Of a stretch of 64,000 nucleotides of DNA, positions 36,655 through 50,405 are shown piece after piece. The notes beneath the pieces are model-generated. The model ran no database searches. It was not told the DNA's origin and worked only from the letters and a program-made list of their open reading frames with translations. Every line of letters starts with the position of its first letter. The first letter of the stretch is position 1. Source of the DNA: Bifidobacterium breve (GTDB lineage: Bacteria; Actinomycetota; Thermoleophilia; Solirubrobacterales; Solirubrobacteraceae); NCBI GenBank assembly GCA_945878865.1, contig CAMCUD010000021.1, forward strand, positions 1 through 64,000, in the 5' to 3' direction. A program made the translations under genes and the position numbers.

Positions 36655-38421
36655 CTACTCGCCCTCGGCGGGCACGCCATAGGTGGTCGTCACGGGTTCA
36701 CGGCGGGTCTCGCCGCCCGGCATCTTGATGACGCGCGTGATGGTGATGGAGAACCCGCCGTCGTCGGTTGGCTGGCGCGAGCCGGGAATCGCCTGAACCT
36801 TCCGGCCGCCGTTGTCGCCGTAGAGGCGGACGGTCACCGAGTCGTCGTCGCTGCTCGTGCGGATGAGGATCGGCGTCTTCGTGTCGTTTGTCCACCGCAG
36901 GTCGATGCTGCCCCAGTTCAACGTCGACTCGCGGCCGGCGGGGTAGCGATCGATGTAGAAGCTGTGCGCGGTGTGCTGGTCGAGCTGCAGGCCGGCGAAG
37001 TACGCGGCGTTGTACATCGTCGTGGAGAACTGCGAGACGCCGCCGCCGACCGAGTCCTCGAGCTTGTTGCCCTCGGCGATGAACGGCGCTTTGACGTAGC
37101 CCTTCTCCTCGGTGCGCTCCCCGGCGATGTCGTTGAGCGAGAACTGGCCGCCGGCGGGGATCACGGTGCCGTCGACCGCCGCGGCGATGTGCTGGATGTT
37201 CGTGACCCGGGGCTGGCCCGGGACGTAGTACGTCGTGAATGTGCCGATGAGCTGGTCGACGCCGCGTGCCTGTGCGGCGGTGACCGGCGGGGCCACGGTC
37301 TTGACGGGGAGCTTGGCGTCGTGGCGGCCCGCGCGGATCGCCCGGTCGATGCGCGCCGCAGCCTTCTTGCGGTCCACCGATCGGCCGGCCCGGCCTTCCG
37401 ACTTCACGGTCACGTTCGCCGCGCGGGGGCGCCAGCTGACCTCGGCCTTCCCGTCGACGACGACGTCGCTGCCGGTCGCGGAGAACTTCACGCCCTTGGG
37501 CGGGCGCTCGCGCTTGGCGGCGAGCTCGGCCACGAGCGCGTCGAGCGCCGCCTGGTTGGTGGCCAGTCGCGCGTCGCGTCCGCCGTCGAGCGACTTCAGC
37601 GTCAGCAGGGGGGCGAGCTGCTCGGGCGTGACGGTGAGGTCGCCGCCGGGCGCGTCGATGACCATCGGGCGGCGCAGCGTGTCGCGGGCGCGCGACGCGA
37701 TGTTCTCCACGCGCTTCTTCGAGACGGCCGGGCGAACGGTGATGGGGAGGGCCACGCTGGCGCTGCGGCGGCTCGCGAAGGCCTGCTCCAGGCGCTGCGC
37801 GAGCTCCGTGCGCCGGACGCGGCGGCCGTCGCTGGGGGTGGTGGCCGTGACCTCGAGCGACGTCGGATCGACGGCGATCGACCCCGCCGAGACGGGTGTG
37901 TCGACCTGCTCGGCGACATCGCGCACGGCGGCCAGGAGCTTTGCTTGGTCGACGCGGGTGACGGGCGGCACCTCACGCCCCCCGGTGATCCCGCCCAGGA
38001 CCCCGCGGACGGTGCCCAGCGGCCCGTCGCGCCCGGCGTCCATGGCCCGCCGCACGGTCGCGTCGAGGTCGACGCGGTAGCCGGCGTCCTGCGGATCGAC
38101 GCTGATCACGGTGCGCCCGGCGGCGAGCTTCACCGGCGCCGGGTCGGCGAGCACCGGCTTCAGCCGCCGCTCGGCCTCCGCGGCGTCGGCGCCGCCGAGG
38201 TCGACGCCGGCGACCTTCGTCCCGGGCAGCACGCGGTCGCTGTAGCGGCTGCCGACCACGAGCAGGAGCAGCAGCACGGCGAAGATGGCGAGGCCGGCGA
38301 CGAGGAGAGGACCCCGCCACCTGCGGCGAGGTGGGGCGGGCCGGCGCTCGGAGCTGCGAGGCGGCGGCGTGGGCTCGGGGTCGTCGAACCAGTCGCGGCG
38401 CGTGGCGGTGCTGGTCGTCAT
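36655..38421 (-). CDS. VanW family membrane-anchored protein
   Basis: 588 residues from ATG 38421. An N-terminal basic/Pro-rich cytoplasmic part, one membrane helix (about 42-62), an extracytoplasmic region with two repeats of the YoaR/peptidoglycan-binding kind (TVISVDPQDAGYRVDLDA and VVSWRPRAANVTVKSEG-like strands) and the C-terminal VanW domain (about 405-560: TFTTYYVPGQPRVTNIQHIA, AEGNKLEDSVGGGVSQFSTT, YNAAYFAGLQLDQHTAHS). VanW proteins are linked to envelope or glycopeptide stress but their activity is unknown. It is divergent from the dehydrogenase gene. Confidence 0.92.
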   Translation of the reverse strand: MTTSTATRRDWFDDPEPTPPPRSSERRPAPPRRRWRGPLLVAGLAIFAVLLLLLVVGSRYSDRVLPGTKVAGVDLGGADAAEAERRLKPVLADPAPVKLAAGRTVISVDPQDAGYRVDLDATVRRAMDAGRDGPLGTVRGVLGGITGGREVPPVTRVDQAKLLAAVRDVAEQVDTPVSAGSIAVDPTSLEVTATTPSDGRRVRRTELAQRLEQAFASRRSASVALPITVRPAVSKKRVENIASRARDTLRRPMVIDAPGGDLTVTPEQLAPLLTLKSLDGGRDARLATNQAALDALVAELAAKRERPPKGVKFSATGSDVVVDGKAEVSWRPRAANVTVKSEGRAGRSVDRKKAAARIDRAIRAGRHDAKLPVKTVAPPVTAAQARGVDQLIGTFTTYYVPGQPRVTNIQHIAAAVDGTVIPAGGQFSLNDIAGERTEEKGYVKAPFIAEGNKLEDSVGGGVSQFSTTMYNAAYFAGLQLDQHTAHSFYIDRYPAGRESTLNWGSIDLRWTNDTKTPILIRTSSDDDSVTVRLYGDNGGRKVQAIPGSRQPTDDGGFSITITRVIKMPGGETRREPVTTTYGVPAEGE

Positions 38422-38611
38422 GCGCACCTCCACGGTACGCAATCGGTGCCACGGTTCCTGGTCGTCTCCGTGCAAGTGGGCGCCGATCCGCCTGAGGAAA
38501 CGGTCGCCAGGCGGCCCTTTCCTCAGGAGCGTTCGGTACGGTCGGCCGATCACCGAGTCCTCCTCACCGCACGCCGTCGTCGCGTTCCATCTCGAGGCCG
38601 CCGGGGAGCGG

Positions 38612-39802
38612 TTGAAGCTCGCCGAGGCGACGCTCGACCTCCTGCGCTCCTCCGAGCGCGAGGTCCAGGTGCAGCTGCCCGTCGAGCGCACGGACGGCTC
38701 GACGAGCGTCTACACCGGCTACCGCGTCCAGCACAACGCGGCGCGCGGACCGTTCAAGGGCGGGATCCGCTTCCACCCCGACGTCGATCTCGATGTCGTC
38801 CAGGGGCTCGCCTCGCTCATGACGTACAAGTGCGCGCTCGTGAACATCCCGTTCGGCGGGGCGAAGGGCGCCGTCCGCTGCCCGGCCGGCGAGCTCGACG
38901 CGCGCGAGCGCGGCCGGCTGGCGCGCGTGCTGACGCGGCGGCTGGCCGACGTGATCGGTCCCGAGCGCGACATCCCGGCGCCGGACATCGGCACCGACGA
39001 GACGACGATGGCGCACATGATGGATGAGTGGTCCCACATCGTCGGGCCGACGCCCGCGGTGGTGACCGGCAAGCCGCTCGTCCTCGGCGGCACGTACGGG
39101 CGGCGCGACGCCGTCGGCCGCGGCCTGGCCCAGCTGTTCTCCTACGCCGCAGACGAGCTCGGGGTTGACGTGGAGGGCGCGCGCATCGCCATCCAGGGGT
39201 TCGGCAAGGTCGGCGCGGCCGCCGCGGTGGCGTTCACGCGCCTGGGCTGCAAGGTGGTGGCGGTCAGCGATGCGGACACCGCGGTCCTGGCGCCCGGCGG
39301 CGCATTCGACCTCATCGCACTCGAGGAGGCCGTCGCCCGGCAGGAGCCCGCCGAGGCGCTGCCCGGGGACCGGATCGCACGCGACGAGCTCCTGACGGTG
39401 CCCTGCGACGTGCTCATCCCGGCGGCGCTGGGTGGCGCCATCCATCCCGGCAACGTCGCCGACGTCGACTGCCAGGTGATCCTCGAGGGCGCCAACGCGC
39501 CGGTGACCCTGTCGGCCGAGCAGGAGCTGCTCGAGCGCGGGGTGCGCATCGTCCCGGATCTGCTGGCCAACGCCGGCGGCGTGATCGTCTCGTACTTCGA
39601 GTGGGTGCAGAACCTCCAGCACCTGCACTGGGACGCCGGCGAGGTCGACGAGCGGCTCGGCCGCACGATGCGCCGCGCGTGGGACGAGCTGCACGCCGCC
39701 GTGGAGCATCAGGACGGCGGGCCGAGAACGCTGCGCGAGGCGGCGTACGACCTGGGTGTCCAGCGGGTGACGCAGGCGATGGCGCTTCGCCGCGCGGTCT
39801 AA
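38612..39802 (+). CDS. Glu/Leu/Phe/Val dehydrogenase
   Basis: 396 residues from TTG 38612, preceded by GGGGAG. The N-terminal domain shows YTGYRVQHNAARGPFKGGIR (about 34-53) and the catalytic Lys region MTYKCALVNIPFGGAKG, then the Rossmann domain with QGFGKVGAAAA and the DPLLANAGGVIVSYFEW-type ending (here DLLANAGGVIVSYFEWVQN). It catalyses reversible oxidative deamination of glutamate or a branched-chain amino acid. The start is uncertain: coding-like third-position GC extends upstream to about 38550 without a standard start codon, and the ATG at 38420 would overlap the VanW gene. Confidence 0.93.
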   Translation: MKLAEATLDLLRSSEREVQVQLPVERTDGSTSVYTGYRVQHNAARGPFKGGIRFHPDVDLDVVQGLASLMTYKCALVNIPFGGAKGAVRCPAGELDARERGRLARVLTRRLADVIGPERDIPAPDIGTDETTMAHMMDEWSHIVGPTPAVVTGKPLVLGGTYGRRDAVGRGLAQLFSYAADELGVDVEGARIAIQGFGKVGAAAAVAFTRLGCKVVAVSDADTAVLAPGGAFDLIALEEAVARQEPAEALPGDRIARDELLTVPCDVLIPAALGGAIHPGNVADVDCQVILEGANAPVTLSAEQELLERGVRIVPDLLANAGGVIVSYFEWVQNLQHLHWDAGEVDERLGRTMRRAWDELHAAVEHQDGGPRTLREAAYDLGVQRVTQAMALRRAV

Positions 39803-40607: not shown

Positions 40608-41120
40608 ATGGCCGCGCAGCCGCCGCCGCAGGCCCCGCCCCCGGGGTGGTATCCCGACCCTCAGGCCCAAGGCGCCGAGCGCTGGTGGGACGGTGCGCAG
40701 TGGACGGCCAACCAGCGGCCGGCCGGCGGCATGGCGCCCGTCGCGATGCGCCAGCCGATGAGCCCCTCGGACGAGAAGTCGTGGGCGTGCATCGCGCATG
40801 TCTCCGCGCTCGCCGCGTCGTTCATCGGGCTGCCGGTGATCGGCCCGCTGATCGTCTACCTCATCAAGAAGGACGAGAGCCCGTTCGTGCGCGCGCACGC
40901 CGTCGCCTCGCTGAACTTCCAGCTGAGCTGGCTGATCTGGTTCATCGTGCTCGGTGTCGCGACGGTCGTCCTGATGTTTGTCATCGTCGGGTTCCTGCTG
41001 CTGCCCGTCCTGCTCGTCGCGGCGATCGCGTGGCTCGTGCTCGTCATCGTGGCCAGCGTCAAAGCGGCCAATGGCGAGCCGCCGATGAACTACCCGCTGA
41101 CGATCGACTTCGTCAGGTAG
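40608..41120 (+). CDS. DUF2510-DUF4870 membrane protein
   Basis: 170 residues. An N-terminal DUF2510 motif, PPGWYPDPQAQGAERWWDGA (about 11-30), with QWT following, is the small actinobacterial Trp/Tyr-rich domain. The DUF4870 part has SWACIAHVSALAASFIGLPV, PLIVYLIKKDESPFVRAHAV and three to four membrane helices. Both domains are of unknown function and are often joined. Membrane protein, cytoplasmic N-terminus inferred. Its 3' end overlaps the transglutaminase gene by 8 bp. Confidence 0.92.
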   Translation: MAAQPPPQAPPPGWYPDPQAQGAERWWDGAQWTANQRPAGGMAPVAMRQPMSPSDEKSWACIAHVSALAASFIGLPVIGPLIVYLIKKDESPFVRAHAVASLNFQLSWLIWFIVLGVATVVLMFVIVGFLLLPVLLVAAIAWLVLVIVASVKAANGEPPMNYPLTIDFVR

Positions 41121-41994
41121 CCGCGGGCTCGCCCACGACGTCGACTTCGACCTTCATCGACGTCGTGCGCCCCCGCGTGTAGATCACGCCGGTGAGCGGT
41201 GCCACGTCGCCGTAGTCGCGCCCGTACGCGGTGACGATGTGGCGCTCGCCGACGATCTGCCCGTTCGTGGGGTCGAGATCGAGCCACCCCGCCCCCGGGA
41301 ACAGCACGCTGAACCAGGCGTGGGACACGTCGGCGCCGGTGAGCTTGGGCCGACCGGGCGGCGGGTCGGTCTCCAGGTACCCGCTGACGTAGCGTGCGGG
41401 CAGGCCGAGCGAGCGCAGGCACGCGATACCGAGATGGGCGAAGTCCTGGCAGACGCCCTGGCGCCGGGCGAGCACGTCCTTCAGCGGCGTGTCGACGTCC
41501 GTCTCCCCGGGGGCGAACTCGAAGTCCTCGTGGATGCGCGTGGACAGCTCGGTGACCGCCTCGATGAGCTGGCGGCCCGGGGTGAACGAGGGCGCGGCGT
41601 ACTCGGCGAACGGCGCGGCGGCCTCGACCCGCGGGGAATCCAGGGTGAACTGGACGACGTCGGGGTCGCGGCTGGCGCGCACCTCCTCCCAGGCCTGCTG
41701 GCCGAACAGCGACAGGGACGCCGGGCCCCGGCTGTTGGCGATCTCGACGACGCTCGTCGCCGTCACCGTCAGCCGGCGGTGCGGCGCGCCCACGGCGACG
41801 TACGCGACGCGATTGCCGAAGAAGTCGATGTGCTCGCGGTGGTCCTCGGGCGCGGGATCCACGGTGATCGACGACGACACGCAACGCTGGCCGGGCGCGT
41901 CGCGCGGGAGCAGGTGCATCAGGCTCAGGCTTGGCGTGACGCGCGAGGAGTACCGGTACTCCGTGCGGTGGGTGATGCGGTACGTGGAAGCCAT
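41113..41994 (-). CDS. Transglutaminase-like protein of the amidoligase operon (Tgl-N)
   Basis: 293 residues from ATG 41994. The N-terminal bacterial transglutaminase domain (RITHRTEYRYSSRVTPSLSL, about 5-24; LMHLLPRD) is followed by a transglutaminase core with the Cys in RRQGVCQDFAHLGIAC (about 166-181), His in GADVSHAWFSVLFP (about 214-227) and Asp in LDLDPTNG (about 235-242), a complete Cys-His-Asp triad. It is the third gene of the operon after the ATP-grasp gene (2-bp gap). In related clusters this protein is thought to cut or form amide bonds in the same product as the ATP-grasp enzyme. Confidence 0.93.
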   Translation of the reverse strand: MASTYRITHRTEYRYSSRVTPSLSLMHLLPRDAPGQRCVSSSITVDPAPEDHREHIDFFGNRVAYVAVGAPHRRLTVTATSVVEIANSRGPASLSLFGQQAWEEVRASRDPDVVQFTLDSPRVEAAAPFAEYAAPSFTPGRQLIEAVTELSTRIHEDFEFAPGETDVDTPLKDVLARRQGVCQDFAHLGIACLRSLGLPARYVSGYLETDPPPGRPKLTGADVSHAWFSVLFPGAGWLDLDPTNGQIVGERHIVTAYGRDYGDVAPLTGVIYTRGRTTSMKVEVDVVGEPAAT

Positions 41995-41996
41995 GC

Positions 41997-44543
41997 CTAC
42001 GCGCCCTCGGTCGGCCCGGCCCACCCGAGCGCGTGCTGGGGCAGGCGGTGGACGAAGTGCGCGCGCTCGAGCGCGTCGCTGCCTTGCAGCAGCTCGCCGG
42101 AGATCTCGTCGAGGACCGCGGCGAGCGCGAGGTGCGGCCCGTCGTCGCCGAGCAGGCCGGCGGGCTCGGCGAGGCGCAGTGCGGTGCGCGCCCGCAGCAC
42201 GTGGCGCTGGTCGTCGCGCAGGCGGCGCTCGCCCTCGGCAGGAAGCGCGTCGAGGTCGTCGGTCAGGCGCTCGAGCTGGTAGGCGACCGACCGCGGATTG
42301 CGCTCGTCGTGCAGGAGCAGCTCGAGGGCCGTCTCGAGCTGCGCGCGCGAGCGGTAGCGGCGGCGGTAGGTGATGATGCTCTCCGCCGCGGTGAGCGTGG
42401 ATTCCAGGACGAGGCTGCCGGCGCCGACGTCGTGCTGTGGCGTGAGCGTCGTGCGGACGAGCGCGACGAGCTGCAGCGCGCGCTCGAGCCGCCGGCCGGC
42501 GTCCAGGAACCTCCAACCGAGGTCGTGGACCATGCTCTCCTCACCGAGACCGCCGAGCGCGAGCAGCCCCTGGATCAGCCGCTGCATCGTCGCCTGGACG
42601 GCGGGTGACGTCGCGTCCTCGTGGCGGCGCAGGCGCAGCAGCTGGCGGTCCAGCGCGCCGATGACGAGCCACGTGTCGCCCGAGAGCTGGTCGCGGACCG
42701 CGTAGGCGGCCTGCAGCAGCGCCCGGACGGCGTGCGCGACGGTCCCCGGCCGCGACTCGTCGACGAGGAGTGCGAGCAGCTCCCCGCCGGGGGCGCTGCG
42801 CAGGGAGGGGTCGGCGAAGCCCGGGCCGGTCGCCGTGACGTCCGTGAGCGCCATGAGCAGCGTGGCGAGCGCGGCATCGCCCGCCTCGGTGCCGCCGCCC
42901 TGCAGTTCGTTGCGCCGGTCGTGGACCGTGCGCAGCAGGCGGACCGTCGCCTCCGCCCGCTCGGCGTAGCGCCCGAGCCACCACAGGTTCTCCGCGGCGC
43001 GGGCGGGCAGCGACGTCATCGGGTCGATCTGCTCGTGCGCCGGCCCACCCTCCAGCCAGAAGCCGGTCGCGCCTTCCGGCTCGGAGGCCAGGACCCACGT
43101 GTCCTTGCTGATCGCGCCGGCCTGGTTGGAGATCCGCGCGCCGTCGTCGGCGCCCGCGACCCGCGTCAGGCCACCGGGCATGACGGTGTACGAGTCGCGG
43201 CGCGCGACGGCGAACGTCCGCAGCACCGCGCGGCGCGCCTCCAGCCCGTCGTCGCCGAGGGTCGGCGTCGTCGACAGCGCGAGCGGCTCCTGGCCGACCC
43301 ACATCGCGGGGTGCGCGACGATCCGGTCGCGCAGCGCTTCGAGCTCGGCGGTGCTGCACTCCCAGCCGAGGATCGACGCCGGCCCGGCGCCGCGCGAGAC
43401 GGGCCGCAGGACGAGCTCTTCGAGGCGGTCGAGGACGACGCGGCGCTGCGCGTCGTCGCCGCACCACCAGCTCTCCGCGCTGGCCATCCGCGGCGCGCGG
43501 CCGAGCAGGTGCTCGCCGATCGCCGGCAGGAAGTGCATGAGCGCCGGGTTCTCCAGGACGCTCGCGCCCAGCGGGTTGACCACCGAGACGGTGCCGCGGC
43601 GGGTGGCCTCCACCAACCCCGCGACGCCGAGCTGCGAGTCGGGCTTGAGCTCGAGCGGGTCGCAGTACCAGCCATCAACGCGGCGCAGGATGACGTGGAC
43701 GGGCTCGAGTGCGCCCAGCGCGCCCATGTACACCCCGTCCGGGCGCACGACCAGATCGGCGCCCTCGACGAGCGGATAGCCGAGCGTCGAGGACAGGACG
43801 GCGTGCTCGAACGCCGTCTCGTTCCACGGGCCGGGCGTGAGGACGACGATGCGCGGGTCCTCGATGCCGGGCGGCGCCATCGCCTGCAGCGCGCCGCGCA
43901 GCGCGCGGAAGAAGGGCGCGAGCCGGTGCACGTTCGCGCCCCGGTAGAGGCTGGGCAGCACGCGCGAGACGACCGTGCGGTTCTCCAGCGCGTAGCCGAA
44001 CCCCGAGGGCGCCTGCGTCCGGTCGGCGACGACGCGCCACGTGCCGTCGCCGTCGCGGCCCAGGTCCGCGGCGTAGAGGAAGAGCTGCGTGTCGCCGCCG
44101 AGGCGCACCCCGTGGCAGGGCCGCAGGAACCCGGCGTGGCCGAAGACGACCTCGGGCGGCAGCAGCCCGCGCCGCAGCAGGTCGCGCTCGCCGTAGAGGT
44201 CGTCGAGGACGAGGTTCAGCAGCTCGGCGCGCTCGATGACGGCCGACTCGATGCCCTGCCATTCGCGGCTGGAGACGAGGGTCGGGACCGGATCGAACTG
44301 CCACGAGCGGCTGGCGGGCGCGGCGGCGGACGTGCCGTTCGCGCCGTACGCGTGGTAGACGACGCCGTCCTGATCGAGCAGGCGGCTGCTCTCCTCACGG
44401 CGGCGCAGCAGCTCCTCCGTGCCCAGCTCGCTCAGCGCGCCCGCCAGCTCGGCCCAGTGCGCGCGCGGCAGCCCGGCGGCGTCGAGCATCTCGTCGTGGC
44501 GGCCGGGCGGCTGCGCGTAGGCGGATGAGGTCGTCGTGATCAC
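41997..44543 (-). CDS. Circularly permuted ATP-grasp and Alpha-E fusion protein
   Basis: 848 residues. Residues about 10-500 form the circularly permuted ATP-grasp domain (PGPWNETAFEHAVLSSTLGY, LVEGADLVVRPDGVYMGALG, DPLELKPDSQLGVAGLVEAT, KDTWVLAS); residues about 520-840 form the Alpha-E domain (LPARAAENLWWLGRYAERAE, GDTWLVIGALDRQLLRLRR, RRYRSRAQLETALELLLHDE). The two are separate genes in many genomes, and here one polypeptide. Predicted activity is ATP-dependent amide (peptide-like) bond formation, but the product is not known. It is followed 2 bp later by a transglutaminase. Confidence 0.93.
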   Translation of the reverse strand: MITTTSSAYAQPPGRHDEMLDAAGLPRAHWAELAGALSELGTEELLRRREESSRLLDQDGVVYHAYGANGTSAAAPASRSWQFDPVPTLVSSREWQGIESAVIERAELLNLVLDDLYGERDLLRRGLLPPEVVFGHAGFLRPCHGVRLGGDTQLFLYAADLGRDGDGTWRVVADRTQAPSGFGYALENRTVVSRVLPSLYRGANVHRLAPFFRALRGALQAMAPPGIEDPRIVVLTPGPWNETAFEHAVLSSTLGYPLVEGADLVVRPDGVYMGALGALEPVHVILRRVDGWYCDPLELKPDSQLGVAGLVEATRRGTVSVVNPLGASVLENPALMHFLPAIGEHLLGRAPRMASAESWWCGDDAQRRVVLDRLEELVLRPVSRGAGPASILGWECSTAELEALRDRIVAHPAMWVGQEPLALSTTPTLGDDGLEARRAVLRTFAVARRDSYTVMPGGLTRVAGADDGARISNQAGAISKDTWVLASEPEGATGFWLEGGPAHEQIDPMTSLPARAAENLWWLGRYAERAEATVRLLRTVHDRRNELQGGGTEAGDAALATLLMALTDVTATGPGFADPSLRSAPGGELLALLVDESRPGTVAHAVRALLQAAYAVRDQLSGDTWLVIGALDRQLLRLRRHEDATSPAVQATMQRLIQGLLALGGLGEESMVHDLGWRFLDAGRRLERALQLVALVRTTLTPQHDVGAGSLVLESTLTAAESIITYRRRYRSRAQLETALELLLHDERNPRSVAYQLERLTDDLDALPAEGERRLRDDQRHVLRARTALRLAEPAGLLGDDGPHLALAAVLDEISGELLQGSDALERAHFVHRLPQHALGWAGPTEGA

Positions 44544-44558
44544 GGGTCCACCGGAGGC

Positions 44559-47500
44559 TCAGCGCTGCGACGGGCGGCGCAGATCGAGCGTGCGAGGGTA
44601 TTCACCGGGGACGACGGGCGGCGGCACGTCCACCGGGCCGGGGGTGTGCCCGGCGGCTTCGAAGCGGTTGGAGCGGCGCGATTGCGCCTCGCTGGCGTTG
44701 ACCGGGAACGTCTCGTAGGCCCGCCCGCCGGGATGGACGACGTGGTACGTGCACCCGCCCAGCGACCGCGAGCCCCACGCGTCGAGGACGTCGAACACCA
44801 GCGGGCTGTGGATGCCGATCGTGGGATGCAGCGCCGACCACGGCTGCCACGCGCGGTAGCGCACGCCGGCGACGAGCTCCCCCGGCGTGCCAGTGGGCTG
44901 CAGCGGGATCCGCTCGCCGTTGCAGGTGATGACGTGCCGCCCGTCGATCGCCCCGGTCACCCGCACCTGCAGGCGCTCGAGCGACGAGTCGACGTACCGC
45001 GCGGTGCCGGCGCCGGACTCCTCGCCGAGCACGTGCCATGGCTCGATCGCCATCCGCAGCTCGAGCGTCACGCCGTCCACGTGCGCGGTCCCCAGGTGCG
45101 GGAACCGGAACTCCAGGAACGGGTCGAGCCAGTTCGGGTCGAACCCCACGTCGCCGTGGTTGATCTCCGCGACCACCGCGCGGATGTCCTGCTCGCACCA
45201 CCACGGCAGGAGGAAGCGGTCGTGCAGCTCGGTGCCCCAGCGCACGAGCGGGCCGGTGTACGGCTCGTGCCAGAACCGGGCGACCAGCGCGCGCACGAGC
45301 AGCGCCTGGACGAGCGCCATCTGCGGGTGCGGCGGCATCTCGAAGCCGCGCAGCTCCACGATCCCGAGCCGACCGGTCTCGGACCCGGGGTTGAAGAGCT
45401 TGTCGATGCAGAACTCGGCTCGGTGCGTGTTGCCCGTGAGGTCGGTGAGCAGGTTGCGCAAAAGGCGGTCGACCTGCCAGGCCGGGGTGAAGCCGTCCTC
45501 CTCCTCGGCCAGGCGGGCCATCTCGTTGAAGGCGATCTCCAGCTCGTAGAGGTTCTCGTGGCGCGCCTCGTCGACCCGCGGCGCCTGGCTCGTCGGGCCC
45601 ACGAACCGGCCGCTGAACAGGTAGGACAGCGACGGGTGGTGCTGCCAGTACGTGACCATGCTGCGCAGCAGGTCGGGGCGGCGCAGGAACGGGCTGTCCG
45701 GCGGCGTCGTTCCCCCGAGTGTCAGGTGGGCGCCGCCGCCGGTGCCGGTGTGGACGCCGTCGAGGGCGAACTTCTCCGCGGCGAGGCCCACGGCCCGGGC
45801 GTGCGCGTAGAGCGTCTCGGTCTGGGCGACGAGCTCCTCCCAGCTCGAGGACGGGTGGATGTTGACCTCGATGACGCCCGGGTCCGGCGTGACGCTGAAG
45901 CTCTTCGACGCGCCGCCTCCCGGCGGGGCGTAGCCCTCGACGACCACCGGGGTCCCGGCGGCGCGGGCGGCGTCTTCGACGATCCGCAGCAGCTCCGCGG
46001 CGTGGGCGAGCTCGTCGATCGGCGGGAGGAACACGTGGACGCGTCCGTCGCGAACCTCCACGCAGAGCGCGGTGATCGGGGGCGGGTCGACCTCCTCGAC
46101 GGGCGCGCGGGCGGGTTCGCCCTCGGGCGCGCCGACCGCCGCGAATCGCGACGGCTCCGGGTCGGGGACCGGCGGGGTCCAGGTCAGCGCGTCGAGCGGC
46201 AGGCGCAGGCCGACGGGCGAGTCGCCGGGGATGAGGAACAGCCGGCCGCGGCGCAGGTGCCAGCGCCCGGTGCGCCAGTGCGCGTCGCCGACGCCGCGCT
46301 GCAGGGGCAGCGCCCAGCCGACCGGCGCACCGCGGTCCTCGTCGAGCTCGCGGACGAGCTGCGCCCGCGCGTCTCCGTCGCCGAGTTCGTCCGGGTCGTC
46401 GAGTGGGGGCGGCTCGCCGCCCGGCAGGCGCGCCTCGTCCCACAGCCGCGCCAGCGGATCCTCGTACGCGGGGACCGGGGCGTCAGGCAGATCGAGCACG
46501 CCGGCGATCGTCTCCATCACGGCGCGTGCGTCGTCGGCCGTCGCGTCGCCGGGCTCCCCGACCGGGTGGGCGAGCAGCGTCCGGTCGCGCCACAGCGGCA
46601 CGCCATCGGTGCGCCAGCGCACGCGGATGTCCCACCGGGGCAGCGGCTCACCGGGGTACCACTTGCCCTGGCCGTGCTGGATGAGCGCGCCCGGGGCGAC
46701 GTCGTCGGCCAGCCGCAGCGCCAGGTCCACCGCCAGCGCGTGCTTCGCCGGGCCGAGCGCGGCGGTGTTCCACTCGTCGGCATCCGTCCCGGTGCGCGCG
46801 ACGAACGTCGGCTCGCCGCCCATCGTCAGGCGCACGTCGCCTTCGTCGAGCGCCTCGTCCACTGCACGGCCGAGCGCGTCGATTCGCTCCCACTGCTCGG
46901 GGGTGTACGGCAGCGTGACGCGCGGGCGTTCCTCGTGGCGGGTCACGGTGTTCGAGAACTCGAAGTCGACGGCCCCGCGGCTGACGGCTCCGGCGATCGG
47001 CGCCGACGCGGCGGGCGTCGGCGTGCACGACAGCGGGATGTGCCCCTCGCCGGTGAGCAGCCCCGAGGTCGCGTCGAGCCCGATCCACCCGGCGCCCGGC
47101 ACGTACGCCTCGGCCCAGGCGTGCAGGTCGGTGAAGTCCTGCTGGACACTGGGGCGGTCGTTGACGACCGCCGCCTCGTCCTCGGCGAGCTGGACGAGGT
47201 ACCCGGAGGCGAATCGCGCCGCGATGCCGAGCTGGCGCAGCGCCTGCACCAGCAGCCACGCGCTGTCCCGGCAGGAGCCGACGCCTCGCGTCAGCGTCTC
47301 GTCCGGGGTGAGGACGCCGGGCTCCATCCGCACCGAGTAGTCGACGCTCGCGCGGACGCGCCGGTTGATCTCGATGAGCAGGTCGATGGTCTGCTGCCGC
47401 TCGTCGGGCAGCGTGTCGAGCCAGCGGGCGAACGCGGGGGTGGCCGGGTCGGCGGCGAGGTAGGGCGCGAGGTCGTGGGCGAGCGCCGGCTCGTAGGCGA

Positions 47501-47810
47501 ACGGCCAGGCCTTCGCGTCCTCCTCGACGAAGAAGTCGAACGGGTTGATCACCGTCATGTCGGCGAGCAGGTCGACCGTGACGCTGAACTCCGCCGTCGG
47601 CTCGGGGAGGACGATGCGCGCGAGGTGGTTGCCGAACGGGTCCTGCTGCCAGTTGACGAAGTGCTCGGCCGGTTCGATCTTCAGCGAGTAGGCGAGGATC
47701 GGCGTGCGGCAGTGCGGCGCGGGCCGCAGCCGGATGGTCTGCGGCCCGAGCTCGGCGGGGCCGTCGTAGCGGTACACCGTGCGGTGCTCGAGGGCGACCG
47801 TGATGCTCAC
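44559..47810 (-). CDS. Transglutaminase-DUF2126 protein, first gene of the amidoligase operon
   Basis: 1083 residues from ATG 47810. An N-terminal transglutaminase-N domain (VALEHRTVYRYDGPAELGPQ, about 5-24), a core with the Cys in RGVGSCRDSAWLLVQALRQL (about 175-194), His in FTDLHAWAEAYVPGAG (about 223-238) and Asp in GLDATSGL, then the long DUF2126 region (about 290-1050; LTMGGEPTFVARTGTDADEW, VEGYAPPGGGASKSFSVTPD, ALDGVHTGTGGGAHLTLGGT-like motifs with many acidic and His residues). DUF2126 resembles a glutamine-synthetase-like/amidoligase fold in published predictions. A 15-bp gap leads to the ATP-grasp gene. Confidence 0.93.
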   Translation of the reverse strand: MSITVALEHRTVYRYDGPAELGPQTIRLRPAPHCRTPILAYSLKIEPAEHFVNWQQDPFGNHLARIVLPEPTAEFSVTVDLLADMTVINPFDFFVEEDAKAWPFAYEPALAHDLAPYLAADPATPAFARWLDTLPDERQQTIDLLIEINRRVRASVDYSVRMEPGVLTPDETLTRGVGSCRDSAWLLVQALRQLGIAARFASGYLVQLAEDEAAVVNDRPSVQQDFTDLHAWAEAYVPGAGWIGLDATSGLLTGEGHIPLSCTPTPAASAPIAGAVSRGAVDFEFSNTVTRHEERPRVTLPYTPEQWERIDALGRAVDEALDEGDVRLTMGGEPTFVARTGTDADEWNTAALGPAKHALAVDLALRLADDVAPGALIQHGQGKWYPGEPLPRWDIRVRWRTDGVPLWRDRTLLAHPVGEPGDATADDARAVMETIAGVLDLPDAPVPAYEDPLARLWDEARLPGGEPPPLDDPDELGDGDARAQLVRELDEDRGAPVGWALPLQRGVGDAHWRTGRWHLRRGRLFLIPGDSPVGLRLPLDALTWTPPVPDPEPSRFAAVGAPEGEPARAPVEEVDPPPITALCVEVRDGRVHVFLPPIDELAHAAELLRIVEDAARAAGTPVVVEGYAPPGGGASKSFSVTPDPGVIEVNIHPSSSWEELVAQTETLYAHARAVGLAAEKFALDGVHTGTGGGAHLTLGGTTPPDSPFLRRPDLLRSMVTYWQHHPSLSYLFSGRFVGPTSQAPRVDEARHENLYELEIAFNEMARLAEEEDGFTPAWQVDRLLRNLLTDLTGNTHRAEFCIDKLFNPGSETGRLGIVELRGFEMPPHPQMALVQALLVRALVARFWHEPYTGPLVRWGTELHDRFLLPWWCEQDIRAVVAEINHGDVGFDPNWLDPFLEFRFPHLGTAHVDGVTLELRMAIEPWHVLGEESGAGTARYVDSSLERLQVRVTGAIDGRHVITCNGERIPLQPTGTPGELVAGVRYRAWQPWSALHPTIGIHSPLVFDVLDAWGSRSLGGCTYHVVHPGGRAYETFPVNASEAQSRRSNRFEAAGHTPGPVDVPPPVVPGEYPRTLDLRRPSQR

Positions 47811-47951: not shown

Positions 47952-50405
47952 TCAGCGCGTGATCCGGAAGGCCAGCACCTTCGCCTTGCCGACGTTGCCC
48001 GCCGCGTCAATCGGCGTGACGACCGCCTGATAGCGACCGGCGCGCAGCTTCTTGCCGCCGACCTTCAGCGCGATCTTCACGCTGCCCGCCCCGGCGCCCG
48101 CGGCGACGGTCTTCGTCAGCACCGTCGTGGCGATGACGCAGCGCTTGCCCTTCTTGGCCTTCGTCGAGCAGCTCTTGCCCTTCTTGCGGCCGCGCTTGAG
48201 GGACTGGATCTGCACGCGGACCTTCCCACCCTCGGTCGGCTGGAACGCCACGGTCAGCGCGCCGCCGCGCGTGATCGAGGCGGACGCCAGCGTCGCCTTG
48301 GCCAGCGACGGGGCGGTCGTGTCCTTCGCCGGGACGACGTTCTGCCCGCCGCCGCCCGCGCCACCACCGGCCGGGGGAGGCGCCGGGGCGTCCGAGGGCG
48401 GGTTGACGACGACGCCGCTCAGCGGGGTCATGACGTACACGGCGAGCGGGAGCTGGTTGTCGCCGTTGGAATCGGCCTTGATCTCCGCCTTCAGCCGCTT
48501 GCCCAGGTCGGCGGAGGTCAGCTTGTACGTCGCGCCCTTCTGGCCGGACAGCGTCTCGCAGGACGAGCCGTCGGCCTCGCAGCGGATCCACTGGCGCGCG
48601 TACGTGGTGCCCGGGTACTCCCACTTGCCGACGTTGGCCGAGAGCGACTCGCCGACCTCGGCCTTGCCGACGAGGAACGGCGCGACGAGATTCGTCGCCT
48701 GCTTGGGGAGAATCTCATTCGACGGGTTGCTGAAGTCCGTCGTCGCACTGCCCTCGGAGTTCTTGCCGGTGACCTTCACCATGATGCGCTGGGTGACGTC
48801 GGCGTCGGTCAGCGTGTACGTGCCGCCGTTCACACCTGCCGTCGTCCGGACGAAGACGCACGAGCTCGTGTTGGTGTTCGTGCAGCGGAACCACTTCGCG
48901 GTGTACGAATCCGCGCTCGGGTTGAAGAACAGGCCGCTCGGCGTCAGGGTGTCGCCGGAGTACTTCAGCGCGCTCGTCAGCGTCGGATTCCACATCTGGC
49001 TGTAGCCCGGCAGGACCGTGGGGTCACCGCCGATCGAGCCGTACGTGTCGCTGCCCGCGTCGACCGAGACGAACGTGTCGACGTCGTTCTCCGCGGTGAC
49101 GACGATGCGGACCCACTTGTTCTTGTCGTCCTTGCTGAGGGTGTACGTCGGCTGGTCCGCGCCGTCGATGTCGGTGCAGGACCCGGTGGACGACGTGGTG
49201 CAGCGCTGCCACTGGAACGTGTAGTCGATCTGCTTCGTGCCGTTCCAGTTGCCCTCGTGGCCGGTGAGAGTCTGGCCGACGGTCTTCGTGCCGGTGATGT
49301 ACGGCTTGTTCGCTGCCGTGCCGTCGTTGGACGGCGGCACGAGCGTGAGCGCGTATCCGCCGCCGCCGTCACTGCCGGCGATGTACGTCAGCGGAAGCGT
49401 GGGGACCTTCGCGATCGTCCAGAAGATGTTGTGGCCGCCGAGCCCGGTGTCCTCGACGTGGCGCCAGTCGACCGGCCCGGGGTTCAGGACGTTGTCGTTG
49501 CGCGCCCGGCCGACCCACAGGCCCGCGTCCGTGGCGGCGTAGATCCGCGTGCGGCTCGCGACGTTGCGGATGACCATGCCGCGGACCGTTCCGCCGTTCA
49601 TGGCCTTCGAGCCCGTGCCGTTGATCGACGACCACGTGAGGCCGGCGTTGACCGTGCGGTACACGCCGTCGGTGGTGCCCGCGTAGTAGATGAGCGGGTT
49701 CTGCGTGTCCTTGTAGATGCGCAGGGTCGTGGCGGGGATGCCGTCGCCGGCGAACGTCCAGGACGCGCCGCCGTCGAGCGAACGGAAGACGCCGCTGCTC
49801 GTCGCCGCGAGCACCGTGCCGGGGACGAACGACGTCAGGCTCCACACCGTCGTCGCCGGCGGGATGCCGTTGCCCGGCTGCGGCGGGATCCAGGTGTTGC
49901 CGCCGTCGTTGCTGCGGTACACGCCGCTGGAGAAGCCGCCCACCAGCAGCGGGCCGCCCGTGAGGCCGAGGATCGCCTGCACGGCGGTGTTGAGCTTCTT
50001 CGGGTTCTTCGGATCGTCCTCCGGGCCCTGGGCGACGGGCTGCCACGCGCCGCCGCCGGTCGAGGCGAACAGGCCGGCGCTCGTGCCGGCGAGCATCCGG
50101 CTGCCGTCGGCGTACACGGCGCGGACATCCTTCGCGCCGGGGACGCCCTCGAGGCCGGCGTTGAACGCCGACCAGCTCACGCCGCCGGTCGTCGACCGGA
50201 AGACGCCGTCACCCTCGGTCGCCGCGTAGACCGTCGTCGGAATCTGCCCGGTCGTGTACTCGCGGACATGGTCGGGCACCGGCGCGCTCAGTCCTGGGAG
50301 GCTCACCCACGGCGGGGTGATCGCCTGCGCTGGACCAGCGAGGAGGGTGGCGCCGCCGAGAAGCAGCACGACGGACAGGACGAGACGACGGGCATGACGC
50401 AGCAT
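47952..50405 (-). CDS. Exported BNR-like propeller with Ig-like and basic C-terminal domains
   Basis: 817 residues from ATG 50405 with a signal peptide (MLRHARRLVLSVVLLLGGAT, cleavage near AQA-IT). BNR/sortilin-like blades cover about 50-310 (YAATEGDGVFRSTTGGVSW, GVYRSNDGGNTWIPPQPG, GVFRSLDGGASWTF). Three Ig-like repeats follow with paired Cys (QWQRCTTSSTGSCTDIDGAD, KWFRCTNTNTSSCVFVRT, QWIRCEADGSSCETL). A Pro/Gly-rich linker (PAPPPAGGGAGGGGQ) leads to a basic C-terminal domain (SLKRGRKKGKSCSTKAKKG). No sialidase active site is visible. A cell-surface scaffold is likely. Confidence 0.88.
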   Translation of the reverse strand: MLRHARRLVLSVVLLLGGATLLAGPAQAITPPWVSLPGLSAPVPDHVREYTTGQIPTTVYAATEGDGVFRSTTGGVSWSAFNAGLEGVPGAKDVRAVYADGSRMLAGTSAGLFASTGGGAWQPVAQGPEDDPKNPKKLNTAVQAILGLTGGPLLVGGFSSGVYRSNDGGNTWIPPQPGNGIPPATTVWSLTSFVPGTVLAATSSGVFRSLDGGASWTFAGDGIPATTLRIYKDTQNPLIYYAGTTDGVYRTVNAGLTWSSINGTGSKAMNGGTVRGMVIRNVASRTRIYAATDAGLWVGRARNDNVLNPGPVDWRHVEDTGLGGHNIFWTIAKVPTLPLTYIAGSDGGGGYALTLVPPSNDGTAANKPYITGTKTVGQTLTGHEGNWNGTKQIDYTFQWQRCTTSSTGSCTDIDGADQPTYTLSKDDKNKWVRIVVTAENDVDTFVSVDAGSDTYGSIGGDPTVLPGYSQMWNPTLTSALKYSGDTLTPSGLFFNPSADSYTAKWFRCTNTNTSSCVFVRTTAGVNGGTYTLTDADVTQRIMVKVTGKNSEGSATTDFSNPSNEILPKQATNLVAPFLVGKAEVGESLSANVGKWEYPGTTYARQWIRCEADGSSCETLSGQKGATYKLTSADLGKRLKAEIKADSNGDNQLPLAVYVMTPLSGVVVNPPSDAPAPPPAGGGAGGGGQNVVPAKDTTAPSLAKATLASASITRGGALTVAFQPTEGGKVRVQIQSLKRGRKKGKSCSTKAKKGKRCVIATTVLTKTVAAGAGAGSVKIALKVGGKKLRAGRYQAVVTPIDAAGNVGKAKVLAFRITR

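Follow-up and report, generated by a model that had tools for sequence, protein, structure and literature searches.

An amidoligase-type operon encoding DUF2126, transglutaminase and fused ATP-grasp-Alpha-E proteins, and the altered ATP/metal site of its ATP-grasp domain

Gene content of the operon and its surroundings

In the window (viz. the whole stretch of 64,000 nucleotides that was analysed), three tightly packed genes are present on the minus strand, and their coordinates, their strand and the gaps between them (15 bp at positions 44544-44558 and 2 bp at positions 41995-41996) are as given in the original prediction for this DNA. Gene 1 (44559..47810, minus strand; GTG start, 1083 aa) codes for a protein containing Bact_transglu_N, a transglutaminase core and DUF2126; gene 2 (41997..44543, minus strand; GTG start, 848 aa) codes for a circularly permuted (CP) ATP-grasp that is fused to Alpha-E; and gene 3 (41113..41994, minus strand; ATG start, 293 aa) codes for a stand-alone transglutaminase-like protein. 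Profile searches with these three proteins matched the families that had been expected for them, with all of the Pfam scores far over the cut-off: 1169 bits (cut-off 27) for DUF2126 in gene 1, 475 bits for CP_ATPgrasp_2 and 237 bits for Alpha-E in gene 2, 92 and 97 bits for the two matches to Bact_transglu_N, and 62 (gene 1) and 71 bits for the two matches to Transglut_core. The description of the cluster as flanked by two transglutaminases is a loose one: two of them are present, but the first makes up the N-terminal part of the DUF2126 protein and has no gene of its own. The joining of DUF2126 to a transglutaminase domain, as seen in gene 1, is what defines the DUF2126 amidoligase module, and the operon is a real one that belongs to a known kind of cluster, for which both the formation and the cleavage of amide bonds have been predicted, as had been proposed.

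With a GC content of 0.74 the cluster differs little from the window (0.73), so that nothing in its composition points to a recent import. None of the three proteins matched an NCBIfam model or a PADLOC model for anti-phage defence, and on account of the empty PADLOC search the identification of the operon as a defence system was dropped. In the neighbouring reading frames that were scanned, no carrier-peptide or transporter gene adjoining the cluster was recognised, which agrees with what had been noted for this locus. A glutamate dehydrogenase gene (38285-39799 of the window, plus strand) is convergent with the operon, its end being 1.3 kb away, and the nearest relative likewise has a gene of this kind close to its operon. 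Upstream of the operon, on the same strand, a gene is present (47952-50405, minus strand) whose product is probably secreted and contains Ig-like repeats; this gene is conserved in the nearest relative, and a perfect 13-bp inverted repeat is located between this gene and the operon.

Distribution of the module and conserved residues of its transglutaminase and DUF2126 domains

To describe the gene order, 80 relatives of gene 1 with their flanking DNA were taken from species-level genomes, and 65 of these loci, having at least 6.5 kb downstream of the gene 1 relative, could be scored. A fused ATP-grasp-Alpha-E gene was present on the same strand in 56 of the 65 scoreable loci, the second transglutaminase was found in all 56 loci with the fused gene, and the order transglutaminase-DUF2126, fused ATP-grasp-Alpha-E, transglutaminase is likewise kept in 56/65. 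In all, 62 linked fused genes were found. The presence of both ligase-like partners in one polypeptide, which had been pointed out for this locus, is confirmed, but it represents the usual form of the DUF2126 module. The module is found in Actinomycetota, Poribacteria, Bacteroidota, Pseudomonadota, Chloroflexota, Deinococcota and other phyla; in the class to which the window belongs DUF2126 is a rarity, with 2 of 119 genomes having it. Additional ORFs that recur beside the module in Poribacteria look like local synteny of close relatives and they were not retained as partners.

The catalytic residues of the transglutaminase domains are well conserved, and both proteins contain the Cys-His-Asp triad of the transglutaminase-like superfamily. 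In gene 1 the triad C180/H230/D246 is present in 81/81 relatives, and the full triad earlier ascribed to the second transglutaminase was located in gene 3 at C182/H225/D241, with Cys kept in 61/62 relatives, His in 62/62 and Asp in 62/62. The sole case lacking Cys is a transglutaminase downstream of the fused gene (locus L066) that has Ser in its place (GEGTSRDHAH).

Approximately from residue 298 to residue 905 (45096..46919, minus strand), gene 1 has a region that resembles glutamine synthetase. The AlphaFold2 model of gene 1 that was examined has a mean pLDDT of 73, weaker than that of the gene 2 model. The best 50 VIA-align rows for this model are all glutamine synthetases or their homologues (Z 15.3-17.1), with a superposition on glutamine synthetase at Z 17.1 and 3.9 A over 274 residues, and the model thus predicts a glutamine-synthetase-like fold for DUF2126. 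Further, the residues E333, E648, H695, E819 and R821 of gene 1, which were likened by eye to metal/substrate residues of glutamine synthetase, are invariant in 81 sequences; hhalign of DUF2126 with one GlnA sequence gave no reliable residue mapping. Based on the predicted fold and these invariant motif residues, DUF2126 is probably the only intact ligase within the operon.

The same structural neighbours also bear upon a different explanation, in which the operon would serve for scavenging of nitrogen and not for synthesis, with DUF2126 glutamylating amines in the manner of gamma-glutamylmethylamide synthetase (GmaS) or 1-naphthylamine glutamine synthetase, and with the transglutaminase domains hydrolysing gamma-glutamyl/isopeptide bonds to release nitrogen. 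GmaS (7cql, Z 15.9) and 1-naphthylamine glutamine synthetase (8wwv, Z 15.8) are indeed among the matches. However, they tie with ordinary glutamine synthetases, and the structural rank cannot separate these substrate classes. Moreover, no amine transporter or oxidase was recognised adjoining the operon, and this explanation leaves unaccounted for both Alpha-E and the conserved ATP-grasp domain described below; we consider it unlikely, although the regulatory data discussed in the last section speak in its favour.

Fused and unfused forms of the ATP-grasp domain

The CP_ATPgrasp_2 domain of gene 2 (43155..44285, minus strand) has kept the ATP-grasp fold. The model of gene 2 has a pLDDT of 85, and its structural matches include 3n6x (Z 43), glutathione synthetases (Z about 24-24.7) and GspS (Z 20-21.5). 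For Alpha-E, which occupies the other half of this protein (42054..43010, minus strand) and was assigned by Pfam and by its conserved GRY.ER motif, the best structural rows have Z about 10, which is below the helical background. The residues of the ATP-grasp domain were compared with those of E. coli GspS, in which we take D318, E330 and N332 to be Mg2+ ligands and K498 and K533 to be ATP ligands. The best local profile alignment places the DLVR..VLEDN..PSG stretch on D318..E330-N332 and the LENP sequence of the fused form on the stretch containing K498; taken by itself, this profile match is not significant (E about 0.05-0.08), and it is the motif, its spacing and the fold that carry the mapping.

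In an alignment of these domains, the unfused ATP-grasps contain VLEDN..PSG, whereas the fused ones mostly contain VLxDR..APSG. In gene 2, the degenerate Mg2+ motif VVADRTQAPSG (residues 171-181; 44001..44033, minus strand) has A173 in place of Glu and R175 in place of Asn, while LENP (residues 330-333; 43545..43556, minus strand) corresponds to ADDK of the unfused form, with P333 at the position of the ATP-binding Lys (GspS K498). The Gly-rich loop, which reads VVK..(S/A)GGxG in the unfused form, is represented in gene 2 by the degenerate ELVLRPVSRGAGPASILGW (residues 376-394; 43362..43418, minus strand), and the GGxG is missing from the fused form. Hence, at the D318, E330, N332, K498 and K533 positions gene 2 has D160, A173, R175, P333 and R380, of which only the first is kept, and the ligands expected of an active ATP-grasp are otherwise lacking.

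This pattern is not confined to the protein from the window. In 73 fused sequences the D318 equivalent is present in 73/73, but those of E330, N332 and K498 are each found in 0/73; the N332 position is occupied by Arg in 66 and the K498 position by Pro in 68, while the K533 position has Lys in 42 and Arg in 29. In contrast, of 91 unfused sequences the equivalents of D318, E330, N332 and K533 are kept in 91 and that of K498 in 90. Excluded from both counts is a protein encoded in a planctomycete genome (L176), which is CP ATP-grasp-like but divergent, has neither the intact nor the fused-type motif and fits neither type. The same split was seen again in an out-of-sample set that was fetched later (7 fused, 26 unfused) and also in a sample of the class drawn without reference to DUF2126. 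Judged from these sequences, the canonical ATP/metal site is lost throughout the fused clade and kept in the unfused form, which is the useful new point here; in the open literature searched, of which Iyer et al. 2009 did not form part, no account of an inactive form of this ATP-grasp was found. The loss of the E330, N332, K498 and Gly-loop equivalents also provides a quick means to discriminate between the two kinds of ATP-grasp in any genome.

All fused proteins group in a single clade (support 1.0, branch length 0.49) in which many positions, including WWCG, LEN and R175, are near-invariant, and the ATP-grasp domain encoded in the window, when compared with that of its nearest relative, shows dN 0.13 and dS 0.46. 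The existence of a single constrained clade with near-invariant positions argues for a conserved pseudo-ATP-grasp and not for simple decay, and the domain of gene 2 looks like such a pseudo-ATP-grasp, which presumably has lost its activity. However, as D160 is retained and the K533 position is still basic, it could bind nucleotide weakly or in a metal-independent manner. The original prediction had treated the fused ATP-grasp as a second working ligase, acting with DUF2126 and the transglutaminases of one operon. The fold and the family on which it was based are right, D160 does not vary and the domain evolves under constraint, but in all 73 fused proteins two Mg2+ ligands out of three are missing, as are one ATP lysine and the Gly-rich loop, features which their unfused relatives retain in almost every member. 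A loss of ATP-binding residues is what the original prediction had itself named as grounds for its refutation; this part of the prediction is therefore not supported, and an operon with two working ligases now appears quite improbable.

An intact unfused ATP-grasp, with its own Alpha-E and transglutaminase, is present elsewhere in the same genome (contig C5). An ATP-grasp of unfused length was found in 44/44 DUF2126 genomes searched, 42 of which also have a fused or contig-truncated second ATP-grasp, the two exceptions being small drafts; since the choice of these genomes was based on their resemblance to gene 1, and draft assemblies are frequent among them, the co-occurrence is strong but not unbiased. 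The unfused gene is near 29 of 52 scoreable loci, usually beside an unfused Alpha-E, and all unfused genes from DUF2126 genomes that were read back have the intact E and N. In the window's class, both of the DUF2126 genomes contain the unfused ATP-grasp, while any CP ATP-grasp is found in only 21/119 genomes. Many genomes have the unfused ATP-grasp without DUF2126, whereas all of the DUF2126 genomes searched have it, and due to this the DUF2126 module appears to be an addition onto the unfused module. A third type of CP ATP-grasp, with an intact LEDN motif, is also present in this genome (contig C2; L142, 9510-11342), with an AMP-binding enzyme on one side, an acyl-CoA dehydrogenase on the other and a wax ester synthase nearby; related copies, which make up a separate clade, are found in a few of the genomes from the class.

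Related systems and possible function of the operon

The domain families and the kind of cluster are those of the amidoligase/Alpha-E/transglutaminase clusters of Iyer et al. 2009. The Anbu operons (that of Y. bercovieri and PP_2685-2688 of P. putida), which consist of an unfused ATP-grasp, Alpha-E, a transglutaminase and Anbu, share three of these families with the operon in the window, and the unfused trio on contig C5 is of this type. The operon described here, however, differs from them in having DUF2126 and a fused degenerate ATP-grasp, and no Anbu/proteasome gene (PF00227) was matched in its genome (96% complete, 79 contigs), as a result of which Anbu was dropped as a partner. For Anbu operons it has been proposed that a peptide is attached to proteins and later removed (Iyer et al. 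2009, as quoted in PMC6376114 and PMC5666114). Such protein tagging is the least probable of the explanations considered for the present operon, as no Anbu gene was matched in its genome and no tag gene was recognised, and a peptidase that may substitute for Anbu elsewhere is unlinked here. This zinc metallopeptidase (Peptidase_Mx with a zinc ribbon) recurs beside the clusters in several phyla (L009, 3889-5058; L011, 16831-17934; L138, 4193-5251; and, by its annotation, L139, 7408-8489) and may take the part of Anbu. It was not retained as a fixed partner, since it adjoins only 7/80 loci and the copy in this genome is on another contig (C8, locus L140).

The statement that no product or phenotype is established for such clusters needs to be qualified. 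The unfused ATP-grasp from the Anbu operon of Y. bercovieri releases phosphate from ATP (PMC6376114), and clusters related to this one respond to nitrogen starvation under the control of NtrC (PMC5491218, PMC7801951, PMC8050072). In B. cenocepacia, a cluster of DUF404/407, DUF403, a transglutaminase and a large transglutaminase depends upon NtrC and sigma-54 (PMC5491218); judged by its description, this cluster (I35_5080-5083) appears to include a large transglutaminase of the DUF2126 type, but its ATP-grasp and Alpha-E are separate genes in this proteobacterium whereas they are fused here. The genes PP_2686-2688 of P. putida, listed under NtrB/NtrC, are up 11 to 15 fold in nitrogen limitation (first strain column; PMC7801951), and PP_2685 and PP_2688 rise when nitrate replaces ammonium (PMC8050072). 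The cluster type is found in many phyla and its proteobacterial relatives are among the strong responders to nitrogen starvation. The induction of related clusters together with urea and nitrate uptake genes in nitrogen limitation (PMC7801951, PMC8050072) is also what nitrogen scavenging would lead one to expect, as is the report of a protease activity for Rv2569c (PMC11081392), to which we return below.

Taking these observations together, the operon may be regarded as the DUF2126 module of a widespread Alpha-E/ATP-grasp/transglutaminase system predicted to form and cleave amide bonds. Based on its predicted fold and invariant residues, DUF2126 would act as the working ligase, using ATP to activate a carboxylate that is then joined to an amine. 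As the fused ATP-grasp is without most of the ATP/metal residues, the operon probably relies on DUF2126 and on a matching intact enzyme elsewhere, and the ATP-grasp chemistry would be supplied by the unfused enzyme encoded on contig C5, working with the operon. The pseudo-ATP-grasp half of gene 2 together with Alpha-E would probably be a binding or scaffold subunit, while the transglutaminase domains, whose triads are intact, may break the amide or act in its transfer. As the product one would expect either a peptide with an amide or isopeptide linkage or a small amide, which, as suggested by the published regulation of the proteobacterial relatives, is probably made or recycled in nitrogen limitation. 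To this explanation as a whole, in which a DUF2126 ligase, a pseudo-ATP-grasp/Alpha-E subunit, the ATP-grasp from contig C5 and the transglutaminases make an amide product, we assign a probability of about one half. Somewhat more tentative is the broader proposal that the pseudo-ATP-grasp-Alpha-E protein, of single origin and kept in many phyla, serves as an obligate subunit without catalysis of its own, through which the glutamine-synthetase-like ligase is paired with a separately encoded active ATP-grasp. If this is true, the system should be viewed as a ligase machine of two modules and not as two ligases within a single operon. A point against the explanation given first is that no complex was detected when pull-downs were done for a related Anbu operon (PMC6376114). 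If the fused ATP-grasp is catalytically dead, searches for activity should target DUF2126 and the unfused ATP-grasp jointly.

In M. tuberculosis, Rv2566-Rv2569c presumably correspond to transglutaminase-DUF2126, fused ATP-grasp-Alpha-E and transglutaminase, split on two strands, with Rv2569c being, as we understand it, the neighbouring transglutaminase of that cluster. The Rv2569c protein has been reported to act as a serine protease that is not affected by cysteine inhibitors, even though the domain analysis of the same authors pointed to a cysteine protease (PMC11081392). As the transglutaminase family examined here keeps its Cys, that report deserves a second look. A set of ATP-grasp, Alpha-E, transglutaminase and protease is also described for an antinematode clone, jj117, according to the citation of a PhD thesis in PMC7764037.
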